Shown one piece after another: positions 1 to 20,499 of a DNA stretch of 22,016 nt. The notes under the pieces were generated by a model. That model made no database searches. It saw only the letters and a list, made by a program, of their open reading frames with translations, and had not been told where the DNA came from. The stretch is from a virus. The stretch is from positions 1-22,016 of the IMG/VR virus record IMGVR_UViG_3300025872_000345; one strand, 5' to 3'. Positions within the stretch are counted from its first letter, which is position 1. Each line of letters begins with the position of its first letter. The position numbers and the translations under genes are program-made.

Positions 1-2028
1 AAGGCCCGGGCGCTGCGCGGCGCAGTGAAGAAACTTTGCGCCGAAAAGCGGCGCGCTTTGCTGACCCGTGTTACCGACGACGGAGACGGGGGACCTCTCC
101 CGTCTCTCGGGCTCTGCCTGGGCATCGCGGGTCCTCCTCCTTCGGTGGTGGACAACACGTTGCTTGAGCAGCTCCGAGTGCCGCGCGGCTATGTCGTCGA
201 CGGTTCGGGTGTCTGGAAGATGTCCCCGACCAGCGACGGTGAGTCGGTCTCAACCAAGATCGCATCGGTGCCCATCTTCATTGTTGGGCGCACGCACGAT
301 GTGCTGACGGGGGAGGCGAAGCGGCAAGTGGCGTGGCGCACGCCGGCCGGATGGACGGTGCGCGCGATCCCACGCGGCGTGCTGATGAACTCGCAAAAGC
401 TCATCGGACTCGCCGACCTTGAAGCCCCCGTGACGTCGAACACTTCAGCTCTGCTGGTTGGGTTCCTGTCCGAGTTCGAGGCCGAGAACATGCACCGCTT
501 CGGTGCAAGTCAGGCGGCGAGCCGGATGGGGTGGGTCCAGCAGAACGGGGTGAACGGGTTCCTGCTACCGGACGAGTACTACTCCCCGGTGGAAGGGGCC
601 GAGCCGATGGAGCTGATCCCGCCGGAAGGCATGGACAACTTCCTGGACGGCTGGCGCAAGGCGGGCGACTGGGATGGGTGGCTCGCCGCGGTAGACAAGG
701 CATCTGACTTCGCCCCGATGTGGGTTGCCTTGTACGCCGCGGCGGCCGCCCCGCTGCTTGAGATCGTCGGCTGTCCCTCGTTCATCGTCGACTTCTGCGG
801 CGAGACGACGGGCGGCAAGACGACCGCTCTCCGGCTGGCGGCCTCGGTGTGGGGTCGCCCGTCGGACAACGGCGTGACCGCGATGTACTCCTGGGACTCA
901 ACCAAGGTGTACATCGAGCGGACGTGCGGGTTCCTGTCCCACCTTCCGGTCATCCTCGACGAGACGAAGCGGGCGAAGAGCCCGCAGATCGTGCGCGACG
1001 TCATCTACGACTTCGCGAACGGGCAGGGCAAGGGTCGCGGTTCCATCGGCGGGACGCGCCAGACGGCGTCGTGGCGCACGGTCATGCTGACCTCCGGCGA
1101 GAGCGCGGCGACGGGCTTCAGCCAGGACGCCGGGACGCGCGCCCGCGTGCTGAGCATCGAGGGCAAGCCCCTCGGCACCGACCGCGCCGTCGGCGGGCAG
1201 GCGTCGGAGTTCATCACGAAGACGGTCCTGTCCCACTACGGGCACCTGGGCCGGAAGGTGATCCACTACCTCGTCAGCGTGGCGCAGCAGCACGAGGACC
1301 TCCGGCATGTGTGGGCGCAGACGCGCGACCACTACGCCATGATGGCGCGCACGGCCGTCTCCCGGCGGCACGCGCAGTACCTCGCCACGCTCCACATCGC
1401 CGCGGAGATCGTCCACGGGTTGGGCGTCCCCCGGCCTCGGTGCGGCGAGCCGCTGACGCTGCTGCTGGAAGCCGTGAAGGAAGCGGAGGTCGACGCCGAC
1501 CGTCCGCTCGCCGCGCTCACGGAGGTCGTGACCTGGGCCGCTGCCAACCAGACTCGGTTCTGGGGCCGCCATGAGATCAACCGGGAGGGCCACCCGGCCG
1601 TGCCGCCCCGCGGTTGGTACGGGAGCTGGGAGAACGTGACGGAGTGGAAGTACATCGCCATCCTTCCGGCTGTCATCCGCGAGGTGCTGGAGAAGCCGGG
1701 GTACGGGGTCGACGAGGTCATCTCCCGGTGGCAGGAGCGCGGCTGGCTGTTCATGACGTCGATGCCGGCCCCTCGGACCCGGGTCGTGCGGGTGCAGGGC
1801 GAGGGCATGCGCGCCTACTGCATCTCCCGTGCGGCCGTGGAGCTCGCGCTCCAGGACCCGACGGACGCGCCGCTGGCCTCGCCGGAGCTGGTGTTCACCC
1901 CCGGCGGCGACGCCCTGGGTGACGTCGCGGTCTCGCCGGAGGGTTCGCCGGAGGAGGGTCCGTCGGACCTCGAGCTCGAGCAGCGGCTGGCCGACTCGGC
2001 CCGTGCGGTGGACGAGGGCGAGGCGTGA
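1..2028 (+). CDS. DUF927-type P-loop ATPase (helicase-like), 5' partial
   Basis: The reading frame is open from the window edge. A GTG at 25 is the first possible start, but no SD precedes it and eight codons upstream are open, so the gene probably begins outside the window. Numbering from that GTG (667 residues), a Walker A motif GETTGGKTT lies at 259-267, followed by an AASVWG segment. A Walker B-like VILDE is at 309-313. After that come a YDFANGQGKGR segment and an arginine-rich SGES/GTRARVL region. This order is typical of DUF927 proteins, found in phages, plasmids and islands, where they are thought to act as replicative helicase-like ATPases. The last 60 residues are acidic and probably disordered. 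A role in phage DNA replication is inferred. The family call is fairly secure; the biochemical activity is not shown. Confidence 0.8.
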   Translation, partial: KARALRGAVKKLCAEKRRALLTRVTDDGDGGPLPSLGLCLGIAGPPPSVVDNTLLEQLRVPRGYVVDGSGVWKMSPTSDGESVSTKIASVPIFIVGRTHDVLTGEAKRQVAWRTPAGWTVRAIPRGVLMNSQKLIGLADLEAPVTSNTSALLVGFLSEFEAENMHRFGASQAASRMGWVQQNGVNGFLLPDEYYSPVEGAEPMELIPPEGMDNFLDGWRKAGDWDGWLAAVDKASDFAPMWVALYAAAAAPLLEIVGCPSFIVDFCGETTGGKTTALRLAASVWGRPSDNGVTAMYSWDSTKVYIERTCGFLSHLPVILDETKRAKSPQIVRDVIYDFANGQGKGRGSIGGTRQTASWRTVMLTSGESAATGFSQDAGTRARVLSIEGKPLGTDRAVGGQASEFITKTVLSHYGHLGRKVIHYLVSVAQQHEDLRHVWAQTRDHYAMMARTAVSRRHAQYLATLHIAAEIVHGLGVPRPRCGEPLTLLLEAVKEAEVDADRPLAALTEVVTWAAANQTRFWGRHEINREGHPAVPPRGWYGSWENVTEWKYIAILPAVIREVLEKPGYGVDEVISRWQERGWLFMTSMPAPRTRVVRVQGEGMRAYCISRAAVELALQDPTDAPLASPELVFTPGGDALGDVAVSPEGSPEEGPSDLELEQRLADSARAVDEGEA

Positions 2029-4939: not shown

Positions 4940-6388
4940 CTACTCGGCGGCGCGCTGGGCGAGGACCGGGACGAGCTGGCCAGCGGCGCGCTCGATGCGC
5001 CAGCGGGCGATCTCGTCGAGCAGCCCTTCGTGCGCGCCGCGGGTGAACGCGTTGACCACGTCCGCGAGGCTGTCCCCGGGCTCGACGGCGAAGGCGGCCT
5101 CGACGGCGCGGGTCAGCGTCTCGCGCGGCACGTCCGCGTCGAACTCCCCGGAGGCAACGAGCGCCTTGGCCGCGCTCAGGCCCGACGTGTGGACCTTGCC
5201 GCCCAGGCGCATGGCGCTGACGGGCGTGTCGCGCAGCGTGCCCCAGCTCGACAGGAAGAAGCGGGCCGCCTCGTCCGTGCGGCCCACGACCTGCGCGACG
5301 TCGAGCTTGACGCGCTCCAGCCCCGCGGCCGTCAAGTCCTGCGTCCTGCTGCCACGGTGGACGCGCCGCAGGTCGTCACCGAACTCCGCGATGGTGCAGT
5401 TGATGCACACGATCCGCGTGAACGTGTTACCAGCGCGGTGGCTGCCGCTGCCCGCGTCGTTCGACCGTGCGGACAGGCCCGTTTCGAAGACGTCCCCGAC
5501 TGCGGGTCGGAGCGTCTGCGGGGCGTGCCATGTCGCGCGGATGGACAGGTCCGTCGTGGCCGGATCGTACGCGACGACGCCCCGGGGGTCCGGGAGCTTC
5601 AGCGCGTCGAGCGCCTCGACGTACGCGCCCAGGACGCGGTTGCCATCCATTGGCATGTACGAGGGGCTCACCGTCGCGAACGCCTGCCATTCCCCGTCGA
5701 GGTTGCGGATGCGGAGGCGCACGTCGCGCTCGCTCTCCTCTGGGTAGAAGTCCGCGAGGCGGGCCAGCTGCGCGTTGACTGCCTCGCGCCGCGTCTCGAC
5801 GTCGAGCAGGGCGAGGAACTGCCACGCGCTGGGGAACGCCTTGGGGAAGCGCTGGACGAGGGAGCGCAGCGCCGCGGCCTCCAGCCGGAGCGGGGTCTTC
5901 CCCCGGGTGAGGCGGCCCTCGCCGTCGAGGCGAAGCAGGGAGGCGTCGCCGACGCGCACGTCCACCCGCTGCTCCTGCGTGATGCGACGGGCGACCTCGC
6001 GCGCCACGTCCCGGAAGGCCGGGAGGTCAGCGTGGCGGCGGGCGAGCGAGGCGTACTTCGCCTTGCCGCTGTCGAGCATCTCGGTGCCCGCGGCGAACCA
6101 CGTACCGGCCGGAGCGAAGCCCTTGGCGCGAAGCCACGCCTCCTGCGCGGCGATGCGCTTGGCGGCCTCGGGGTCCACGTCCACGCCCGCGCGGAGAGCC
6201 TGGGCGGGGGCCGCCACGGGCGCGGCGACGGGTGCGACGGGGGCCTCGACAGTCGGGACGGTCGGGGCGTCGGGGGCGACGAGGCGGCCCGTGAAGCCCG
6301 CCGCCGCGTAGGCGCGCATGGCCTCCTCGCGGGGGAGGACGGTGCTGGTGCCGTCGGCGGCGATGTAGGTGAGCTGGTCGGGGTTCAT
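4940..6388 (-). CDS. DUF932-like phage/plasmid protein
   Basis: The product has 482 residues and starts at the ATG at 6388 with AGGAG eight bases upstream. The N terminus is followed by an alanine/proline/valine-rich linker (about 41-66). The large C-terminal part is mixed alpha/beta. Residues 300-347 carry FETGLSARSNDAGSGSH ... TFTRIVCIN followed by RRVHRGS. This resembles the conserved core of DUF932 (phage/plasmid-related) proteins, where an aligned segment ends in a VC-N motif before a histidine-containing segment. DUF932 proteins are common on phages, plasmids and islands, but their function is not established. The match is from memory of the family pattern and is moderate. The gene stands alone between two coupled blocks of small genes, with hairpins on both sides. 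Confidence 0.6.
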   Translation of the reverse strand: MNPDQLTYIAADGTSTVLPREEAMRAYAAAGFTGRLVAPDAPTVPTVEAPVAPVAAPVAAPAQALRAGVDVDPEAAKRIAAQEAWLRAKGFAPAGTWFAAGTEMLDSGKAKYASLARRHADLPAFRDVAREVARRITQEQRVDVRVGDASLLRLDGEGRLTRGKTPLRLEAAALRSLVQRFPKAFPSAWQFLALLDVETRREAVNAQLARLADFYPEESERDVRLRIRNLDGEWQAFATVSPSYMPMDGNRVLGAYVEALDALKLPDPRGVVAYDPATTDLSIRATWHAPQTLRPAVGDVFETGLSARSNDAGSGSHRAGNTFTRIVCINCTIAEFGDDLRRVHRGSRTQDLTAAGLERVKLDVAQVVGRTDEAARFFLSSWGTLRDTPVSAMRLGGKVHTSGLSAAKALVASGEFDADVPRETLTRAVEAAFAVEPGDSLADVVNAFTRGAHEGLLDEIARWRIERAAGQLVPVLAQRAAE

Positions 6389-6442
6389 GGCTTGACTCTC
6401 CTGTCGTGGGGTTGGGTGACTCGGTGCTAGACCGACTCAGGG

Positions 6443-6466
6443 GCAGCGGGAGGAGGCCCCCGCTGC
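6443..6466 (-). terminator. Hairpin between the paralogue block and the DUF932-like gene
   Basis: GCAGCGGG (6443-6450) pairs with CCCGCTGC (6459-6466) around an 8-nt loop, 13 bp past the stop at 6479. No T-run follows in the minus direction, so it could be a weak terminator, an attenuator or an mRNA end-protecting hairpin. An imperfect inverted repeat (GACTCGGT 6418-6425, ACCGACTC 6431-6438) lies right beside it, upstream of the DUF932-like gene. Confidence 0.35.
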
Positions 6467-6478
6467 GCCTGCGACGAA

Positions 6479-6790
6479 CTAGAGAATGGTGAGCTTGGAG
6501 TTGGCGAGGGGGATGCGGACCCGGGCTCCGCGGAAGTCGGCGTCGTCGGCGGCCTCGTCGAAGAGCCAGCCCGTCAGGAAGACGGGGAAGCCTGCGGCCT
6601 CGTCGTCGTCCTGATCGAACGTGTCGACGACGACGTCCTGCACGACGGTGTCGAGGCCCGCGGCGTCGAACTGCTCGACCCGGACGGTCCAGCCGTGCAG
6701 CACCCTCAGAACGTGACGGACGGTGTCACCGTCGGGCCCGCCGTCGGCGAAGCCAAGGGTGAAGTTGAGCCAGGAGCGAGGCGCGGTCAT
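6479..6790 (-). CDS. Acidic protein of unknown function
   Basis: A 103-residue product starts at the ATG at 6790, overlapping the upstream stop as ATGA, with GGAGG seven bases before it. It contains a strand-rich N-terminal half (SWLNFTLGFADGG, VLHGWTVRVEQFDAAG) and a very acidic centre (VDTFDQDDDEAAG). Its end reads GARVRIPLANSKLTIL. It may be a small beta-rich domain. The SD is encoded within the Gly-Gly codons at the C terminus of the gene upstream. No family recognised; a longer frame to 6994 is rejected because it lacks an SD and runs through two overlapping genes. Confidence 0.65.
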   Translation of the reverse strand: MTAPRSWLNFTLGFADGGPDGDTVRHVLRVLHGWTVRVEQFDAAGLDTVVQDVVVDTFDQDDDEAAGFPVFLTGWLFDEAADDADFRGARVRIPLANSKLTIL

Positions 6791-6966
6791 GGGGAACCTC
6801 CGAACGTGAGTGTGATGTCGTGAAGGCGGCGCCCGTCGGGCGTCGTGTAGCTGCGGACCTTGAGCCAGCCGCGCGCCCCGTGGGCGGCGACGACCTCGTC
6901 GAGGAAGGCGTAGAACCCGCCAGCGCAGGGACGGTCCTCGACTGTGATGCGGCGGCTGCGGCTCAC
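6787..6966 (-). CDS. 59-residue coupled protein of unknown function
   Basis: The start is a GTG at 6966 overlapping the upstream stop as GTGA, with a strong GGGAGGTG SD. A longer frame to 7215 lacks an SD. The short product starts with a basic VSRSRRITVEDRP. A helical segment (FYAFLDEVVAAHGARGW) and a beta-like segment (LKVRSYTTPDGRRLHDITLTFGG) follow. The stop overlaps the next start as ATGA. Both junctions fit the cassette's pattern, which supports it as a real gene. The LKVRSYTTPDG part faintly recalls the WELRV segment of the neighbouring paralogues, so it could be a shortened relative; this is uncertain. Confidence 0.6.
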   Translation of the reverse strand: MSRSRRITVEDRPCAGGFYAFLDEVVAAHGARGWLKVRSYTTPDGRRLHDITLTFGGSP

Positions 6967-7340
6967 GCGGCACCTCCCGGAAGGGCGGCGACAATCGCCC
7001 TGACCGCGGCGACGATCACGGGGATGTCGTCGTGGATGTCGGCGCGAAGCTCGCCCAGGTTCTCCGCGAGGAGCGGGTCGAACCATAGTCGGCGCTCCCC
7101 GTTGTAGGGGTCCAGCTCCAGCTTGCGGTCGAGGACGAGGTCCACGAACACGGGCACCTCGTCGCGCTCCGCGCCCGACCCACGGGGCCACACGCGGAGT
7201 TCCCACCCCGACCACCCCTCGTCCCCGTGGACGGAGACGACGCCGTCGGAGTCACGGTCGGCGGGGACGCCCGCCGCGACGAGGGCGCTGACGATGTGCT
7301 CGCCCGCGGCGAGGATCGCGTCGTCGAGGTCGCCGATCAT
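6963..7340 (-). CDS. Paralogue 3 of the MIG/GGAA family, unknown function
   Basis: A 125-residue product starts at the ATG at 7340 (ATGA overlap, SD GGGGGTG). It shares an evident domain with the two genes just upstream. A helix ILAAGEHIVSALVAAG is followed by a strand pair DGVVSVHGD ... WELRV, then FVDLVLD and a helical C terminus ending PGGAA. The three copies therefore arose by duplication. The domain is acidic and small, with no catalytic motif that I recognise. The conserved GGAA end is at least partly imposed by the SD of the next gene being written in those codons. Confidence 0.7.
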   Translation of the reverse strand: MIGDLDDAILAAGEHIVSALVAAGVPADRDSDGVVSVHGDEGWSGWELRVWPRGSGAERDEVPVFVDLVLDRKLELDPYNGERRLWFDPLLAENLGELRADIHDDIPVIVAAVRAIVAALPGGAA

Positions 7341-7633: not shown

Positions 7634-8337
7634 GCTGCACCCCCGACGTCGCGGAAGAGGTCGCGGACCTGCTCGACGACGAGGTCGAGGTCCTCGACCG
7701 GGAGGCTCGACGCCAGCGCCGTCTCGACGGGCGCGTCACCGTAGGCGTCGGGATGCACGCCGATGATGTCGACGAGGAGGTGGTCGCCGTCGGGATCGTG
7801 CTCGACGCCGACGCACACGCGAAGCTCCCAACCGTCGCGCCAGCCGTGGACCTCGACGATCCCGTCCCCGTAGTCGGAGACGCGGAAGCCCGCGGCGCTC
7901 AGCGCCACGACGATGCGCTTCCCGGCGGCGTCGCACACCTCGTCGTCCGCGACAGCCTGGGCGATGGCGGCCTCGTCGTCGAGAGCTTGGTAGCGGCTCA
8001 GGTCGACGGACTGCACCCGCCGCGCGAGCGCGACGAGGTAGTCCAGCTCCGCACGCGCCGCGCGCTCGCCCTCGGTGGGCCACCAATCGGGCTTGTCGGC
8101 GGCGTCGAAGAACTGCTCCGTCGCTTCGAGGAAGTCGTGCGTCTCGCCCCACTCGGCGAGGGCGAACTGCGCGACGAAGCGGGACGTGAGGTCACCGACG
8201 AGCTCGACCACCTCGACGGAGGTCGGGTAGCGGCGCGAGGTGGAGTCGCACAGTGCGGCCTGCACCATGCGGGAGAACTCGACGGTGACGGCGAGGTCAG
8301 GGGAGGGCGCGGCCCAGCGGGGAAGGGGGGTGTTCAT
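7630..8337 (-). CDS. Two-part protein with C-terminal MIG/GGAA-family domain (paralogue 1)
   Basis: A 235-residue product starts at the ATG at 8337, two bases after the upstream stop (TGATCATG) with GGAG as SD. Residues 1-130 form a helical, acidic N-terminal part. It includes FVAQFALAEWGETHDFLEAT and a KPDWWPTEGERAARAELDYL stretch, and it is absent from the two downstream paralogues. Residues about 133-235 are the shared domain: AAGKRIVVALSAAG, YGDGIVEVHG, WELRV, LLVDIIG and the end VGGAA. This copy may be the parent from which the stand-alone domains were duplicated, or a fusion. No known family recognised. Confidence 0.7.
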   Translation of the reverse strand: MNTPLPRWAAPSPDLAVTVEFSRMVQAALCDSTSRRYPTSVEVVELVGDLTSRFVAQFALAEWGETHDFLEATEQFFDAADKPDWWPTEGERAARAELDYLVALARRVQSVDLSRYQALDDEAAIAQAVADDEVCDAAGKRIVVALSAAGFRVSDYGDGIVEVHGWRDGWELRVCVGVEHDPDGDHLLVDIIGVHPDAYGDAPVETALASSLPVEDLDLVVEQVRDLFRDVGGAA

Positions 8338-8339
8338 GA

Positions 8340-8555
8340 TCAGGACTCCATGCTGGTGATGATGGATGCCGCGTCGCGCTCGGCCTGCGCGACGACGTCG
8401 GGGGTGAGGGCGAGGCGGGCGAGGTCGGAGAGGACGTGGAGATCGACGATCTCCTCGACCGACTCGCCCGTGGTGTCGGCGGCGAGGACCGCCGCGATGA
8501 ACTGCTGGAGGACGCGCGCCGCGAGGTCGACGTCCGCGAGGGGGTAGGGGGGCAT
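8340..8555 (-). CDS. Small helical protein, first gene of the proximal minus-strand block
   Basis: A 71-residue product starts at the ATG at 8555, with GGAG six bases upstream. It is predicted to be entirely helical (VDLAARVLQQFIAAVLAAD, VEEIVDLHVLSDLARLAL, VVAQAERDAASIITSM). It is acidic and has no membrane segment. It leads the six-gene block 8555-6479 and is the first gene downstream of the promoter and repeat cluster at 8.6-9.1 kb. A DNA- or protein-binding regulatory role would be typical for this position but nothing in the sequence shows it. Confidence 0.65.
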   Translation of the reverse strand: MPPYPLADVDLAARVLQQFIAAVLAADTTGESVEEIVDLHVLSDLARLALTPDVVAQAERDAASIITSMES

Positions 8556-8611
8556 GCTTGGCTCCGTCGCTCGCTCTGGCTGGCTGCTAGAGAACTGTCG
8601 GCGACGCCCCT

Positions 8612-8640
8612 TGTATGCCCCGCCGTTACCAGCGCGTCAA
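8612..8640 (-). promoter_or_regulatory. Predicted promoter of the proximal minus-strand block
   Basis: On the minus strand TTGACG (8640-8635), a 17-bp spacer and CATACA (8617-8612) give a plausible sigma70-like promoter about 57 bp upstream of the ATG at 8555. The spacer contains TGGTAACG, one copy of the GTTAC motif that clusters through the rest of the intergenic region. Binding of a factor there would block RNA polymerase. Confidence 0.45.
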
Positions 8641-8826
8641 GTGCCCCGACGAACTTTTCTCTGGCTGCCCGTCAGGTCGACCCCTCGGCGCCCCGACCCC
8701 CTCGCGTAAGGCAAACGGATGCGCCGAAACGCGTCGCGACCTACTGCGACGGCGTGCCGACGTGTTACACCCGTAAGTCCCTGCCACGACTCGAGAACTC
8801 GAGGGCGGCTCGAGCCTCGGAGACCC

Positions 8827-8862
8827 CCTGTAACAGCACCGTAACGGACGCGCTGTTACAGG
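8827..8862. repeat. 11-bp-stem inverted repeat built from the TGTAACA motif
   Basis: CCTGTAACAGC (8827-8837) is the exact reverse complement of GCTGTTACAGG (8852-8862). The 14-nt centre itself holds a CCGTAACGG copy. A second, looser arrangement (GCTGT...ACAGC) spans 8902-8920. It is the most symmetrical part of the motif cluster. Confidence 0.7.
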
Positions 8863-9211
8863 ATCGGTCAACGATCCCGCGTACTTAGGCCAGCAAACGC
8901 CGCTGTAACGGTGTAACAGCGCGACGACATGGACATATAGGGGCCTTCGCGCGTAAGATCGGCCCTACACGATCACGATCTTGACGCGAACGAGAGGACT
9001 ATACGGAGATCGATCATTAGCTATAGTGTTACACTTTGGTAAGGGCTTAGGATCGCGGTCCTGCCTAGCAGATCGCCGTAACACCCCGTCGTCACGACTT
9101 TTTTGCTCTAACCGGGGTCGCCTGTTACACGAACAATATCAACACCTTGGCACGTCAATCGCGGAAGCCATGTCACACGTCGGGGCGTAAGCCCTTGAAA
9201 GGAGCGGAAGA

Positions 9212-9754
9212 ATGAAGCCCACCGTCAACGTCAAGCCCACGGCGGTCCAGCCGCAGGCGCTCGCAGCGCCCTCCCTCCCGGCCGCCCCGGTCGCCCTGCC
9301 CGTCGTGGTCGCCCCGGCCGCGGAGGCCGAGGTCGTCGCGATGCTGACCGAACGCACGTCCGCAACGGCCGAGCAGCGCGCAGTCGCCTCGCAGCTGCTC
9401 GCCGCCGGCTACACCGTCACCCAGGTCGCCCGGCGGCTGAAGGTCCGGGAGGTCACGGTCTGGGGCTGGACATCCGACCCGGACGTGAAAGCCGCCGTCG
9501 AGGCGGGCCGGGAGCACCGCCGGAAGGTGCTGGGGCAGGGGCTGGAAGTCGCAGCCGCGGACGCGCTGACGGCCCTCTCCGACATCGTGTCTGACTCGTC
9601 CGTCATGCCCCGGGACCGGCTGAAAGCCGCCGAGTTGATCCTAGACCGGGCCGGACTGACGGACCGTCCGGCCGCCGCCGCGTCGGTTCAGGTGGACGTG
9701 TCCTTCGACGAGCGGCTGGCCCGGATCGCGGCTAGCGCCACTGGGAAGCCCTAG
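9212..9754 (+). CDS. Helix-turn-helix protein resembling phage small terminase subunits
   Basis: A 180-residue product starts at the ATG at 9212 with AAAGGAG eight bases upstream. The N terminus (about 1-45) is an alanine/proline/valine-rich tail. A helix-turn-helix follows: QLLAAGYTVTQVARRLKVRE then VTVWGWTSDPDVKAAVEAGR (about 62-98), with a tryptophan in the recognition region. The C-terminal half is helical, with RDRLKAAELILDRAGL (about 133-148). This order matches phage HTH proteins of the phBC6A51/small terminase type. TerS recognises the packaging site and loads TerL. Here the gene is about 9 kb from terL and next to the motif cluster at 8.6-9.1 kb, so a transcriptional or replication regulator is a real alternative. 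Confidence 0.65.
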   Translation: MKPTVNVKPTAVQPQALAAPSLPAAPVALPVVVAPAAEAEVVAMLTERTSATAEQRAVASQLLAAGYTVTQVARRLKVREVTVWGWTSDPDVKAAVEAGREHRRKVLGQGLEVAAADALTALSDIVSDSSVMPRDRLKAAELILDRAGLTDRPAAAASVQVDVSFDERLARIAASATGKP

Positions 9755-9772
9755 GACGCGCGCGAGGGGGTA

Positions 9773-9794
9773 GGGGGCTGGTAGGGTAGCCCCC
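9773..9794 (+). terminator. Possible terminator hairpin after the HTH gene
   Basis: GGGGGCT (9773-9779) pairs with AGCCCCC (9788-9794) around an 8-nt loop, 19 bp after the stop. No T-run follows, so intrinsic termination is doubtful. Confidence 0.35.
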
Positions 9795-9989
9795 CGGCCC
9801 CCCGCGTGCCTTGGCGGGCCGTTTCCGGGCCGGGAACAGGGGTCCGGCTTCCGGGTCCGTCCGGCAGGGGTCCGTCCGGCCGGGGGAGAGGCTCGCCGGG
9901 GGAGGGGAGCGCCGGGAGGGGTGCCGTCCGGCCGGACCGTGCGTAGCTGGCCGCCCGCCGGGAGGGCCAGGACGACACCCGCCGGGGCT

Positions 9990-10048
9990 TGTGACAGAAT
10001 GTCACACGCTGCACGATCCGGAATAGTGGACCACGTCACCCCCGGATC
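9990..10048. promoter_or_regulatory. Paired palindromes in the centre of the GC-rich block
   Basis: TGTGACA-GAA-TGTCACA (9990-10006) is a perfect 7+3+7 palindrome of operator form. Nine bases further, GATCCGG (10015-10021) and CCGGATC (10042-10048) form an inverted repeat enclosing GTGGACCAC (10026-10034). The AT-rich patch CATATTGTAG follows. This looks like a protein-binding or structured site, but no adjacent gene start explains it. Confidence 0.5.
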
Positions 10049-10358
10049 GGCATATTGTAGTGTTCATGCGTCGCGACGGGCCGCCGGACCGGACCGCCGG
10101 ACGGGCCGCGTAGCTGGCGCGCAGCTAGCCGCCGGACCGCCCCGGGGGAGCGCCGGACGGGCAGCCGGACCGCCGGACGGACCGCGGCGCCGGGGGAGCG
10201 CGCCGGGGGAGCGCCTCGCGCGGGCGCACGGGCGCGCGGGCGCCGGGGGACCGCGGCGCTAGTGGAGGCTCCAGACGGGCGCCTCCAGACCGGGGCGCCA
10301 CGGGCGCCCCGGGCGACGGGCGACGGGCGCGCCTCCCTGGCTCCCGGGCGCATGCGAA

Positions 10359-10412: not shown

Positions 10413-11438
10413 CTAGGCTACGGGCGCGGCCGTCGCGTGGCGGGCTTGACGCGCGCGCATGGCCGCGCGTGCCCGCGCGAGCATGCTATCCGCGGCCGCG
10501 CACGCCGCGGCGCCGCGGGTGTAGTGTCCATGCGACGCAATGGCCACGACGGGGCCCGACCCGCCGTTGCATGCGCCACAATCGGCGCACCCGATATCGG
10601 TGGCGCGCTCCCGCGACGCGGGACAGTGTAGGTATCCCGTGCGGCCGTCCGTCCCCGCGCCCGCGGCAAGCGCTACCGCGCCGTCGATCTCCGCGGGGAG
10701 GCGCGGATCGACGACTAGGAACGGCCGCCAACCATGACGCACGGCTAGCTCAGCTTCCGCGACGGTATGCGCGGAAGCCATTGCGTATTCGCTTCCGTAG
10801 CTAGCCCACGCGCTATCCGGGCGCGTCCCGCGCACGTATTCAAGCCAGCGCCGCGTGTAGGCCGTCGCGACGCCCCGACGGCCGGACGGGCGCGACGTCC
10901 CGCGCGCCGCGTCAAGGATCGGCGCGTGGACGCTAAGGGGCGCCGCGGCCGGGTCGCCCCAAGCGCCCGCGCGCACGCCCGCAATGCGCCCGGACGCGAC
11001 GCTGTCGGCAACCCACGCCGCGACGGCCGCGGGGGTGGCGTCCGGGTAGGCGCCGCGCACGACGGCGCGGGCTACCTCGGGCGGGCCGTTGCGGACGTAG
11101 CACGGGTCCGTCGGGAGCGCGTCCCCGTCGACGCCCGCGGCCAGGGCGGGACGTTTCCCGCAGCTGCCGCACGCGCCCGCGTCGCACCCGCCCGCGAGGT
11201 TGCGCGACCACGCGCGGTAATCCGCGGCGCGGGCGCCGCGCGCCGTTGATCCCGTGATCCCTTGCAGCATGGCCACGGGGATCACGTAGGACTGTGCCAG
11301 CGGACGGCTCCCGCTTGTCTTAGCGTTTCGCGACGATCCACGTAGGCCCGTCACGACGACCACGACGGGCGCGCCGTCGATCAGGGACGGACCGCGGTAC
11401 ACGACAGCGCCCCGGGGCATGGTGAGGCGCGGCTTCAT
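10413..11438 (-). CDS. Cysteine-rich phage protein resembling the Gp88 family
   Basis: A 341-residue product starts at the ATG at 11438, overlapping the upstream stop as ATGA, with GGTGA as SD. The N terminus carries VYRGPSLIDGAPVVVVVTGL and SRNAKTSG. A first cluster (C85, C90, C93, C113; GACGSCGKR ... PCYV) and a GAWGDPAAAP segment (158-167) follow. A TAYTRRW stretch (192-198) and a second cluster (C272, C284, C287, C290; HCPAS ... CADCGAC) complete it. I recall this order from a family of phage proteins related to mycobacteriophage Gp88, of unknown function. The two cysteine clusters probably bind metal. Codon choice is extremely GC-biased, like the flanking non-coding DNA. The C terminus is arginine/alanine-rich and may be disordered. 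Confidence 0.65.
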   Translation of the reverse strand: MKPRLTMPRGAVVYRGPSLIDGAPVVVVVTGLRGSSRNAKTSGSRPLAQSYVIPVAMLQGITGSTARGARAADYRAWSRNLAGGCDAGACGSCGKRPALAAGVDGDALPTDPCYVRNGPPEVARAVVRGAYPDATPAAVAAWVADSVASGRIAGVRAGAWGDPAAAPLSVHAPILDAARGTSRPSGRRGVATAYTRRWLEYVRGTRPDSAWASYGSEYAMASAHTVAEAELAVRHGWRPFLVVDPRLPAEIDGAVALAAGAGTDGRTGYLHCPASRERATDIGCADCGACNGGSGPVVAIASHGHYTRGAAACAAADSMLARARAAMRARQARHATAAPVA

Positions 11439-11674
11439 AGCGTCACCACGAAGCCGACGAAGCCGACGAAGAGGACCGCGACGAAGATGAACGCCGCGCG
11501 GTCCGCGGCGCGTACGGTCTGAAGTTGGCGCGCCCGTTCGTAGGCGGCCGCGCGGGTCGGTGGCGGCCCATCGACCCACGCGTCGATCCACGTTGCGCCC
11601 GTGACGGGCGCGTGACGGTACACGCGGGCGCGGGGGGCACCGGGGGAAGTGGGAAGATCGGTTTCGGTGTGCAT
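11435..11674 (-). CDS. Small C-terminally anchored membrane protein
   Basis: A 79-residue product starts at the ATG at 11674, with AGGAAG as SD and a promoter 57 bp upstream. The first 55 residues are soluble. Residues about 60-79 (AAFIFVAVLFVGFVGFVVTL) form one hydrophobic helix ending exactly at the C terminus, so the protein is probably a tail-anchored inner-membrane protein. It overlaps the Gp88-like gene by 4 bp (ATGA) and is presumably co-translated with it. A phage membrane function (superinfection exclusion, lysis) is possible but not shown. Confidence 0.65.
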   Translation of the reverse strand: MHTETDLPTSPGAPRARVYRHAPVTGATWIDAWVDGPPPTRAAAYERARQLQTVRAADRAAFIFVAVLFVGFVGFVVTL

Positions 11675-14958: not shown

Positions 14959-15803
14959 AAGTCGGACTGGGCCGCGCGCCGCATGGAGTCCATGATCTCC
15001 TTGTAGCTGCGGGTGTCGGCCTGCTCGGTGGTCGCGGTGCGGTTCGCGCCCATGTTCGCCATCGCCAGGTCCGCGGGAAGCGGCTCAGGCGTGGCGGGAG
15101 CGCCGTACTTCGCGCGCACCATCGTCACGGCGTCCTCGGGGTCCGCGCCGCCGGTGCAGAGCACGCAGAACATGTAGAAGGCGTCGTCGTTGTCGTAGAC
15201 GTCCTTCGCCTCGCTGGTGAGCCAGGTCTCGACGTCCGTCACGGCCGCCTCGACGCGCTGCTCCTCGGCGACACGCTGCTCGTACTGCCACTGCTCGACC
15301 TGTTGGCGGTACTGCTCGCGCTCCTGCTCGAGCGTGGAGTACTTGTTCGACCACTCGTCGACCGCCTTGCGGCTGTTCTGGTCGTACTCCTCGCGCAGCG
15401 CCTGGAGGGCCGCTTCGTGGGCCGCCTTGATCTGCTCGATCTCCTTCTGCTTGGCGGCGAGAGGGTCCGCGTCGCCCGTCAGCCAGCGCTGGACCTCCAG
15501 CTCCTGCTGACGAAGCGTGGCTTCCTTCCGGTCCAGCTCGCGGCGCCGGGACGCCGTCTCCTGGAAAGCCTTGGAGAAGCCACGCTCGAAGTTGCGGTAC
15601 TTCTGCTCGAACCCACGAACGAGCGTGTTGCGGGTGGGCTCGTCGAGTCGGCTGATCCAGTCAGCCTTCTGGAGGGCGTCGAGCTCGCCGTTCCAGTCGT
15701 ACACCTGGGGCGCAGCCTCTTCGACGGGGGCCTCTGCGGGCGCCTCGACGGCTGGAAGCTGGGTCTCGGGGGTCTGGTTCTCGTCATTCGTGGGGTCGAA
15801 CAT
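14955..15803 (-). CDS. Candidate scaffolding protein with long coiled coil
   Basis: A 282-residue product starts at the ATG at 15803 with AAGGAG six bases upstream. The first 35 residues are acidic and proline/alanine-rich. Residues about 70-190 form a long charged helix, probably a coiled coil (ASRRRELDRKEATLRQQELE ... AKQKEIEQIKAAHEAALQAL). The C terminus ends in a short helix with RSYKEIMDSMRRAAQSDF. Phage scaffolding proteins have this composition, and the gene lies after terL and portal in the head block. Usually the coat gene follows, but here it is about 6 kb away on the other strand, so the assignment is moderate. Confidence 0.55.
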   Translation of the reverse strand: MFDPTNDENQTPETQLPAVEAPAEAPVEEAAPQVYDWNGELDALQKADWISRLDEPTRNTLVRGFEQKYRNFERGFSKAFQETASRRRELDRKEATLRQQELEVQRWLTGDADPLAAKQKEIEQIKAAHEAALQALREEYDQNSRKAVDEWSNKYSTLEQEREQYRQQVEQWQYEQRVAEEQRVEAAVTDVETWLTSEAKDVYDNDDAFYMFCVLCTGGADPEDAVTMVRAKYGAPATPEPLPADLAMANMGANRTATTEQADTRSYKEIMDSMRRAAQSDF

Positions 15804-17050: not shown

Positions 17051-18829
17051 TCAGGTCAGCGGCGAGGGCCCGCCGACGATGGCCGCGCCCGCGGGAGGCG
17101 GTCCAGGGGCCATCTGGGCCTGCTGCGCCTCCGCGGGGGTCAACTGCGCGCCCTCGGGCGGCCCGGCAGGGGCCTGGCCGGCCTGCATGGCGAGCTGCGC
17201 GAGCATTTCGGGCGGGATCGTGGGGAGCCCAGGGGGTAGACCCGGTCCCGCGGGGGCCGGAGCGCCCTGGGCGGCCGCCATCTGCTGCATCATCGCCTCT
17301 TCCTGCGCCTTCAGCTCCTCTTCGGGCACCAGGAGACGGGCCGGCAGGCCGACGCTGTTGATCAGCTCCTCGATCAGCATCCGCTTGTTGATGTTGGGGT
17401 CCTGCGCGAGCACCGGGAGGAGCTTCAGCAGCGTCTCCGACATGACCGAGGGGTTCTGACGGATGGGGTTGTAGCTGACCATCTTGAAGACGACCTCGAC
17501 GTCGGCCAGGTTGGCGACCGAGACCTCTTCCCAGCCCTCGGAGCCCGTCACGCGGACGAGCTTGGCCTTCTTCATGTGCTTCCGCGCCAGGTAGAAGCAC
17601 TTCTCGGCGACGTCCTCGATGGCCGTGTTGATGTGACCCTCGCGCGTGGCGAGACGGGTCCGCATCTGGGCGTCAATGATGGCCATCTCGGTCGCCGTGC
17701 GGGCGCCGGCCACCTGTCCGCGGGCCGCCTCGGCCAGGGCGCTGATGAACGCGGCGTCGGCCTCCTGGCGGTTGACGAAGTTCTCGACGCCCACCGGGAC
17801 CTGGGGCATCGGCATCTCGTAGAACAGCGTGCCCAGGGAGCGGATGCCCTCCGAGTTGGTCGGGCTGATGGGCACGAACGAGCCCGTCGCCGCCTCGACC
17901 GCCTTGTTGAGGTCCTCCTCGGTGATGAGCTCGCTGTTGAACAGGATGCGCGGGATCATCAGGTAGACGATCTGCTTCATGTGCGTGAGCAGGTCGTTCA
18001 TCGTCTCCTGCTGGTTCAGGACGAGCTGGACCTCGGAGAGACCGTTGCAGTCCACACCCGACTGGTTCAGGCTGAACATCGAGTAGGGCACGAAGGTCAG
18101 GGGAGCCTCGAACACCACGGCGTCCGCGCTCGCGACGTAGTGCTGCACGACCCTGTGCTCGACGTCGTAGTACTCCCACACCGTGATCCACTGGAACGCG
18201 TCGCGGATGGAGGCGGCGTCGCTGTTCTTGTAGTCGTCGGTGATCCAGCGGGGGTAGCGGTCGGGCTTGATGTCGGCCAGCTTGTCGGTCTTGTACTTGC
18301 CCGACTTCACCTTCGCGACGAACTCCTCGAACGGCATCACGACCGCCTCGATCCAGTAGCGGATGTCGTCGACATCGCGCGCCGTCTGGTCGAAGAAGAT
18401 GGCCCCAGGCTCGAGGACGCGGATGGCGGGACGGTCCTCCTGCTCGTTCCAGCCGACCTTGAACACGCCACGCTTGCAGAGCACGGCGTCGATGAGCGCG
18501 GTCGCCGCGCGACGACGGATCTTGCTCGCGTCGAAGATGTACTCCATCAGCCCGTTGACCAGGGGCACAGCGTCCTGCGACGCCTTGGTGCGCGGGTTCG
18601 CCGCGACCTGGGGGTTGGGGCCGAGCAGCGAGCTGATGGCCGTGTCGGCGATGGCGTAGATCATGTTCTTCGAGCAGAGGAACGAGGGGATTGCTCCGTC
18701 GGCGATGTTCACGTCGTTGCGCGACGTGAAGAACTCGCCGCGGTAGTACCGCCGCGCCTTGTCGAAGTTCTTCTTCTCGTACCGCTCGTAGTGGCGGCGG
18801 TGACGTTCGATCAGGCTGGCGAGCTTCAC
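17051..18829 (-). CDS. Phage portal protein
   Basis: The 592-residue product is assigned from the GTG at 18829, which overlaps the terL stop as GTGA and has GGAG six bases upstream. A TTG two codons earlier sits only two bases from the SD and is rejected. The portal forms the dodecameric ring through which DNA is packaged. Features typical of the family are an N-terminal helix-rich region (RHRRHYERYEKKNFDKARRY), a SSLLGPNPQVAANPRT segment and a DAVLCKRGVFKVGW strand. An acidic turn (FFDQTARDVDDIRYW), a long helical stem and a C-terminal glutamine/alanine/proline-rich tail (about 500-592) complete it. The tail is longer and more proline-rich than is common. It follows terL directly, as in most tailed phages. 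Confidence 0.8.
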   Translation of the reverse strand: MKLASLIERHRRHYERYEKKNFDKARRYYRGEFFTSRNDVNIADGAIPSFLCSKNMIYAIADTAISSLLGPNPQVAANPRTKASQDAVPLVNGLMEYIFDASKIRRRAATALIDAVLCKRGVFKVGWNEQEDRPAIRVLEPGAIFFDQTARDVDDIRYWIEAVVMPFEEFVAKVKSGKYKTDKLADIKPDRYPRWITDDYKNSDAASIRDAFQWITVWEYYDVEHRVVQHYVASADAVVFEAPLTFVPYSMFSLNQSGVDCNGLSEVQLVLNQQETMNDLLTHMKQIVYLMIPRILFNSELITEEDLNKAVEAATGSFVPISPTNSEGIRSLGTLFYEMPMPQVPVGVENFVNRQEADAAFISALAEAARGQVAGARTATEMAIIDAQMRTRLATREGHINTAIEDVAEKCFYLARKHMKKAKLVRVTGSEGWEEVSVANLADVEVVFKMVSYNPIRQNPSVMSETLLKLLPVLAQDPNINKRMLIEELINSVGLPARLLVPEEELKAQEEAMMQQMAAAQGAPAPAGPGLPPGLPTIPPEMLAQLAMQAGQAPAGPPEGAQLTPAEAQQAQMAPGPPPAGAAIVGGPSPLT

Positions 18830-20499
18830 GACCAACTCCGGGATGCAGGGCTGAAGGGGTTCCTGGCGGCACGCGCCTGCATGCTCTTGAACCGGTCCAG
18901 GTCGCTGATGGTAACGCGCGGACCGTCGGTCTGCTCGACTTCTTCGTTGGCGACAGGCGACCCATCAGAGACGAACTTCCGTCGGCTCAGGATGTCTCCT
19001 GCCATGACCGCGGTGCGCGCCAAGTCGAAGTGCTTGGTGTTGCCTTCGCCGTCGCCGCGACGCTCGCGGCGGGACCCGTCGTAGTCTAGGAGCTGGTGCA
19101 GCAACGTGCGGGAGCGGATGGTGATGTCGTTCTCACGCAGCATGCGGACCAGGCGAGCCTCGGCTTCCTGGATGCGCTTGTCGGTGGCGTACCAACCTGG
19201 GTGGTTGCGGTCGGTCCAGAGCAGGTTCTTCGTCCCGCGGTCCTTCAACGTGGCGATGCAGGCCGCGGCGTTGGACTCGACCGCGAGCATCGCCGTGCCG
19301 TTGTAGCGGCGCTGCACCACCAGCAGCCTGCGCGCGAACGTGCCTGGGTCCTCTCGGCCTTCCCAGACCGCCACCTCGCGGCGCTCCTCGGTGTCCCAGA
19401 CCGTCAGCGCACTGTAGTCACCCGAGCTGCCGAAGCCGGCGGGGTCCGCGCAGACCAGGTACTTCCGGCCAGGCCGCGGGTGCTCCATCTCCCAGCTACC
19501 GTGCGGGGCGTTCGTCGGAGGCGCGATGCAGTCCTCCTGCCGGGCGCGCAGCACGTCGATGGGCATGACCGGGTTGGTCTTCCCGAGCCAGCCGTCGTAG
19601 GGGTCGGACGGGTACTTGCAGGAGAACAGGCGCGGGTCGCCGACGAACTCGGTCCGCAGACCCTGCCGACGGAACGCCAGGTTCTCCAGCGTCATGCCCT
19701 TGTGCATCTTCAGGTACGCCATCTCCTCGTCGGTCGGGATGAACCCCTCGACCGGAGAACGGCACGACGGGTCGAGCCACCACTCAAGGAACACGGGGTG
19801 GAAGCGGCTGGCGCCCTGGGGGTCGAGCGCGTTGCGCCACATCGTCTCGTAGTGGGAGCCCGAGGCTCCTGGCGTCGACTCGAGGATGACACGGGCGTTG
19901 GGACGCTTGTTGACCGCGGGGAAGATGTTGATGGCGGCCTTCTGCTGCCACTGCGCCTCACCGAACTCGGTGATGAGCAGGCGGTCGATGGAGCGACCGA
20001 CGGCGGGAGAGCGCCCGCCCGCCGTCAGGACCTTGATGCCGCCGCCGTGGCAGAAGTGGATCTGCGTCGTGCCTGGCTTGCGCCCGTTCTCGACGGGCAC
20101 CTTCACGTCTTCCGGCAGCCGGTTGTACGCGAACAGGATGCGCTCGAAGATGTCCTCGGCCGTGTCCTGGCGCTCGGCGATGAGCACGCCCTTCACACCC
20201 TCCAGGTACATGCAGTCGCGCAGGAGCAGCATGACCGAGGGCGTCGTGATCTTGGCCTGACGGAACTTGCTGGTGATGACCCACCTGTGGTCCGAGCAAG
20301 CCTGGAGGAACTTCATCTGGATGTTGGTGGGGTCGAGGTAGCCTATGCTCTCGTCTTCCCTCACGATCTGGCACATCGACACGAAGGCCCACGGCGTGCT
20401 AAACATCGCATGGACCTTGCTCATGTTGAGGTGCGGCATCGACACCAGCTTCGCCCCGTTGGGGAGCGCGGCGGGGGCCACCGAGGACGGCTTCACCAT
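18826..20499 (-). CDS. terL: Terminase large subunit (packaging ATPase and nuclease)
   Basis: A 557-residue product starts at the ATG at 20499 with AGGAG eight bases upstream. An N-terminal ATPase has a divergent Walker A-like SKFRQAKITT (77-86) and an acidic Walker B LLITEFGEA (174-182), with ESTPG (207-211) as coupling motif. A C-terminal RNase H-like nuclease follows: CADPAGFGSSGDYSAL with Asp352, AVESN with Glu408 and KHFDLA with Asp492 as the likely metal ligands. TerL cuts concatemers and drives DNA into the prohead through the portal. The gene starts 44 bp from a divergent plus-strand gene and overlaps the portal gene as GTGA. No small subunit is adjacent. Confidence 0.85.
   Translation of the reverse strand: MVKPSSVAPAALPNGAKLVSMPHLNMSKVHAMFSTPWAFVSMCQIVREDESIGYLDPTNIQMKFLQACSDHRWVITSKFRQAKITTPSVMLLLRDCMYLEGVKGVLIAERQDTAEDIFERILFAYNRLPEDVKVPVENGRKPGTTQIHFCHGGGIKVLTAGGRSPAVGRSIDRLLITEFGEAQWQQKAAINIFPAVNKRPNARVILESTPGASGSHYETMWRNALDPQGASRFHPVFLEWWLDPSCRSPVEGFIPTDEEMAYLKMHKGMTLENLAFRRQGLRTEFVGDPRLFSCKYPSDPYDGWLGKTNPVMPIDVLRARQEDCIAPPTNAPHGSWEMEHPRPGRKYLVCADPAGFGSSGDYSALTVWDTEERREVAVWEGREDPGTFARRLLVVQRRYNGTAMLAVESNAAACIATLKDRGTKNLLWTDRNHPGWYATDKRIQEAEARLVRMLRENDITIRSRTLLHQLLDYDGSRRERRGDGEGNTKHFDLARTAVMAGDILSRRKFVSDGSPVANEEVEQTDGPRVTISDLDRFKSMQARAARNPFSPASRSWS

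Follow-up and report, generated by a model that had tools for sequence, protein, structure and literature searches.

A mirror-symmetric GTTAC iteron cluster as the probable replication origin of a tailed phage with a SaPI Rep-like DUF927 helicase

The window analyzed here is an entire IMG/VR record, a 22,016-bp fragment that opens inside the gene of a DUF927 helicase and also carries genes for a portal (17051-18835) and a terminase large subunit (18826-20499), both on the minus strand. The longest relative reached via the helicase measures 76 kb, so the window corresponds to roughly one third of a genome. Portal and terminase searches found no close isolate, a helicase search against GTDB species genomes found no relative, and positions 8300-9800 have no DNA-level similarity to isolated phages. 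Three contigs (L104, L105 and L106) encode portals 94-100% identical to that of the window and end short of the intergenic region described below.

Within this 656-bp intergenic region, which precedes a gene encoding a helix-turn-helix (HTH) protein, the word GTTAC or its complement GTAAC occurs ten times between positions 8625 and 9128, as the first-pass annotation had counted; only six of the 16 copies in the contig lie elsewhere. Dinucleotide shuffles of the intergenic region (n = 2000) contain a mean of 1.6 copies and a maximum of 7. An unbiased scan of all 5-mers ranks TGTAA and GTAAC, which occupy the same sites, as the two most clustered in the contig, and the longer word TGTWACA occurs six times in the cluster region and nowhere else in the contig. 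The lowest-GC 300 bp of the contig coincides with the cluster. The 504-bp extent originally assigned to these ten copies is better divided, since the copy at 8625, found in a CGTTACC context 139 bp from its nearest neighbor, is peripheral and the compact cluster therefore comprises nine copies (Table 1). The 11-bp-stem inverted repeat reported at this locus is exact. A promoter predicted around the peripheral copy, at 8612-8640, was not recovered: no sigma-70-like site was reported there, the only one reported being a 9/12 match at 8930-8959.

Table 1. Features of the proposed origin and associated genes, in window coordinates.
Feature	Position	Strand	Basis or remark
Proposed replication origin, nine GTTAC/GTAAC iterons around an AT-richer core	8764..9128		Counts; clusters of relatives
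Peripheral GTTAC copy, probably outside the compact origin	8625..8629	+	CGTTACC context
Iteron GTTAC	8764..8768	+	TGTTACA
Exact 11-bp inverted repeat CCTGTAACAGC/GCTGTTACAGG	8827..8862		Two iterons as arms, a third (8841) in the loop
Inverted-repeat arms	8827-8837 and 8852-8862		
Iteron	8830..8834	-	TGTTACA on the minus strand
Iteron	8841..8845	-	
Iteron, left outer copy	8855..8859	+	TGTTACA; inner pair 50 bp away
Left inner pair, first iteron	8905..8909	-	
Left inner pair, second iteron	8913..8917	-	8-bp period
AT-richer, GATC-rich core, proposed melting region	8918..9027		53% GC against 69% for the contig, hence AT-richer rather than AT-rich
Right inner iteron	9028..9032	+	GTGTTACAC
Right outer iteron	9078..9082	-	50 bp from the inner one
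Right outermost iteron	9124..9128	+	
DUF927 + HTH_56 (Cch) helicase, 5' end missing at the contig edge; putative initiator	25..2028	+	Pfam, PDB profile, Foldseek
HTH protein, terminase-small-subunit-like; cluster neighbor and rival binder	9212..9754	+	HTH_23 and PHROG terminase small matches

Other short words are also unevenly distributed around this locus. CGTAAG occurs four times in the intergenic region (8556-9211) and once elsewhere, and these copies could represent either degenerate iterons or a further motif. GATC reaches 16 per kb at 8600-9150 against 4 per kb in the rest of the window; it is about 2-11 times denser at the cluster in six of eight high-GC genomes (noted for the clusters of L016, L017, L018, L023 and L027) and is absent from the G001 cluster. 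Repeats of CCGGA, CCGGC and CGGAC are dense at about 9790-10230, just downstream of the HTH gene, and similar words cluster after the HTH gene in L063 and L067, near 32.5 kb in G005 and near 39.4 kb in G014.

Equal motif density elsewhere, or lack of conservation in relatives, had been named in advance as evidence against the cluster, and neither was found. A comparable GTTAC cluster of 5-14 copies is present in 14 of the 16 near-complete (65-76 kb) relatives (G004, G006, G010, G014, G015, G016, G017 and G019-G025) and in several of the partial relatives scanned (G001, G002, G005, G008, G018, G027, L063 and L090). These relatives span 49-70% GC, and their helicases share 46-100% identity with the query, so that common descent of intergenic sequence without selection is unlikely to account for the recurrence. 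Not only in the window but also in seven of the eight high-GC relatives having a cluster (G001, G002, G004, G005, G008, G010 and G014), no 300-bp stretch of the contig has a lower GC content than the cluster; in G006 the cluster ranks second-lowest in its contig. In several high-GC relatives the cluster occupies the same place as in the window, between the homologs of the genes at 4940-6388 and 10413-11591, while the HTH gene of these relatives is located beside the helicase gene. We also considered whether any AT-rich intergenic stretch would carry such words, and rejected this because the high-GC genomes contain at most three copies in any 500-bp window outside the cluster.

The two near-complete relatives lacking the cluster, G007 and G011, reach a GC minimum at the equivalent location (47100-47450 and 44450-44850, respectively). 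Inspection of G007 for an alternative iteron yielded none that was convincing; the G011 region contains three GTTATCGC words and one GTTAC. In L084, twelve GAAAC/GTTTC words at 15123-15600, upstream of the HTH gene, take the place of GTTAC, apparently a switched iteron resembling the GTTTC type of the phage FP_Epona. Cumulative GC skew shows no consistent turn at the cluster and provides no independent evidence of an origin.

Closer examination of the layouts reveals a recurrent and roughly mirror-symmetric geometry, in which same-strand pairs 7-9 bp apart flank an AT-richer core of about 95-125 bp and opposite-strand copies follow at 41, 49-52 and 14 bp. Written as strand and offset, the G019 layout is <20 >34 <75 <83 [119 bp] >202 >210 <251 >265, a mirror image about its center; that of the window is <216 >230 <280 <288 [115 bp] >403 <453 >499. 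The Roseburia phage Jekyll, with <0 <9 [96 bp] >105 >113 >121 <162, repeats the same 41/49-bp arm. Sixteen clusters taken as representatives contain 20 same-strand pairs spaced 7-9 bp apart (4.2 expected), 18 opposite-strand pairs at 48-52 bp (7.0 expected) and 12 opposite-strand pairs at 13-14 bp (3.1 expected). None of 2000 random placements reached the observed count in any of these three distance classes, which were chosen after viewing the layouts, so that the counts describe the pattern rather than supply a clean P value. The high-GC clade of G001, G004 and G002 has inner pairs that face the other way and keeps the arms of about 50 bp.

The truncated helicase gene lies 6.6 kb from the cluster in the window, and the separation is likewise several kilobases in the high-GC relatives. 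Its product matches the Pfam families DUF927 (3e-47) and HTH_56 (Cch) (8e-7). A profile search of the PDB returned only two matches, namely the SaPIbov1 Rep (8tch, 1e-34) and the SCCmec Cch (5dgk, 2e-19), with alignments that extend into the C-terminal region. An AlphaFold model (mean pLDDT 81.5) retrieved the same two proteins as its top structural matches in Foldseek (8TCH, E=3e-30; 5DGK, E=3e-24). The predicted C terminus contains winged-helix-like elements (helices 548-556 and 562-571, strands 586-601), and about 116 columns of the model also resemble 5vfx, a pCW3 relaxosome accessory protein solved with oriT DNA. Among the ten proteins of this contig fragment scanned with Pfam, none matches a plasmid-type Rep initiator (Rep_3 or RepA_N). 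Upstream of the helicase in L016, the products of 22-1161 and 5504-7327 resemble, by eye, a family-A DNA polymerase and an AAA/SMC-like ATPase.

DUF927 helicases only about 22-30% identical to that of the window occur in isolated phages and a satellite, in which a strongly clustered word coincides with the end of the helicase gene or comes shortly after it. GGTTAC follows it in the Thermoanaerobacterium phage THSA-485A (ten copies), in AC844P1 and in the gut phage scaffolds L170 and L172. GTAACA follows it in Jekyll and, after one small gene, in the Ruminococcus phage phiRg507T2. In FP_Epona the downstream word is GTTTCACC (ten copies), in phiAH14b GGGAAC (eleven copies) and in the staphylococcal satellite record PT1028 AGTTCCC (nine copies). 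A group of about 70% GC with a distant DUF927 helicase (L099-L103) has a well-formed TGCGTACC/GGTACGCA iteron region directly downstream, and the phage Rollin and scaffold L171 have no clear cluster after the helicase gene. The position of these clusters links GTTNC iterons with the helicase and not with another shared neighbor.

A precedent for such an arrangement exists in staphylococcal pathogenicity islands, whose Rep uses its C-terminal domain to recognize an iteron origin that closely follows the rep gene, and is related in its SaPIbov1 form to the DUF927-containing Cch (PMC7581432). In phage-inducible chromosomal islands (PICIs), the origin always has an AT-rich region with an iteron set on either side, and plasmid replication can be driven by a rep-ori segment (PMC6092414). 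Judging from anatomy and comparison, namely the cluster itself, the way it recurs and is laid out in relatives, its association with the DUF927 family, and the kinship and predicted fold of the helicase, we infer that the cluster is very probably the replication origin, of the SaPI Rep kind, of a tailed phage of about 70 kb and is probably recognized and opened by the phage's own DUF927 helicase. An iteron origin had been one of the options entertained at first, and it is well supported by the mirror-symmetric layout, the GC minimum, the genomes with SaPI Rep-like helicases and the post-helicase clusters of the isolates. In the mechanism we propose, the C-terminal winged helix of the helicase would bind the GTTAC iterons, and the two mirror-image iteron sets would place a pair of oppositely facing helicase rings that melt the AT-richer core between them, from which replication could start bidirectionally.

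The HTH protein encoded at 9212 was initially favored as the binder of these motifs, and the iterons could then be its operator (or origin), controlling its own gene and the divergent genes. In the window its gene begins 84 bp past the cluster; the gene also directly follows the cluster in seven relatives (L063, L067, L068, L085, L090, L091 and L093), and has single GTAAC copies upstream in L007 and L008 as well; TGTWACA is also nearly palindromic, like a dimer site. The gene is present in most relatives whose contigs reach far enough, yet it is unlinked from the cluster in seven others: it lies kilobases away in G001, G004, G005, G006, G008, G010 and G014, as it does in relatives with the HTH gene after the helicase gene. 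The protein's recognition helix does not vary with iteron type, being similar between L084, with GAAAC iterons, and L093, with GTTAC, as it is between G011 (no cluster) and G010/G008; the cluster regions of the isolates encode no convincing HTH homolog (best E 0.11). Moreover, up to 14 copies around a GC minimum are unlike an operator. We therefore regard the HTH protein as a weaker binder candidate than the helicase, given how many relatives have its gene and the cluster far apart, and an operator as unlikely; the protein may have a secondary role, for example through the timing of its own transcription by the origin.

That the same protein matches terminase-small PHROGs and, weakly, a ParB-like family would also fit a packaging (pac/cos) or partition site bound by an HTH/terminase-small protein. 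The motif nevertheless follows the helicase gene in phages whose terminase genes lie elsewhere (THSA-485A), the terminase large subunit gene of the window is about 10 kb from the cluster, and no plasmid-type partition genes were found among the proteins scanned, which leaves such a site highly improbable. Binding by the helicase is itself a proposal, and its gene is unlinked from the origin, so one can also imagine an origin recognized by another host or phage protein, with the DUF927 helicase loaded secondarily. GTTNC iterons, however, follow the DUF927 gene in Thermoanaerobacterium, Roseburia, Ruminococcus, Anaerostipes, Faecalibacterium and Pseudomonas phages and in a satellite of staphylococci, although these hosts have little else in common, and we give this arrangement hardly any credence. 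Recognition-helix residues of the helicases, compared with the iteron letter, yield no clean code.

Recognition by the DUF927 helicase may extend to a more general rule. On balance, we lean toward the view that DUF927 helicases of phages and satellites share a mirror-symmetric origin code built on GTTNC (GTTAC, GTTTC or GTTCC), and that in a widespread family of 65-76-kb phages the origin moved away from the initiator gene with its motif and geometry kept. As both the iteron (GTTAC, GTTTC or GTTCC) and the winged helix vary across many sequences, DNA recognition and opening by these helicases are directly testable. A sizeable family of uncultivated phages gains a probable replication origin and a likely initiator, and the SaPI-style replicon with a self-loading helicase would extend from satellites to full phages. 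A search of non-subscription literature combining phage, iterons, origin of replication and MCM-like matched only PMC7581432, and an earlier description is possible.

Among known systems, the SCCmec Cch (5DGK) resembles the window helicase in its DUF927 and Cch HTH domains and in its fold. Direct-repeat binding has been shown for Cch2, which belongs to another helicase family, in a paper that describes no origin for the DUF927 Cch. The SaPIbov1-type Rep/ori of PICIs shares with the window a DUF927-family initiator helicase with a C-terminal DNA-binding domain, as well as short iterons arranged in two sets on either side of an AT-rich stretch (PMC6092414, PMC7581432). In contrast to those satellites, the window derives from a tailed phage that encodes a terminase and a portal of its own, its iterons have a GTTAC core and a recurrent mirror-symmetric spacing, and its proposed origin is remote from the helicase gene rather than directly downstream, the position seen in the isolates. 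THSA-485A, Jekyll and phiRg507T2, whose annotations do not call the iteron regions origins, differ from the window in having iterons (almost) directly downstream of a helicase gene whose product is about 22-25% identical, and match it in combining a DUF927/MCM-like helicase with GTTAC iterons and similar 41-52-bp arms.
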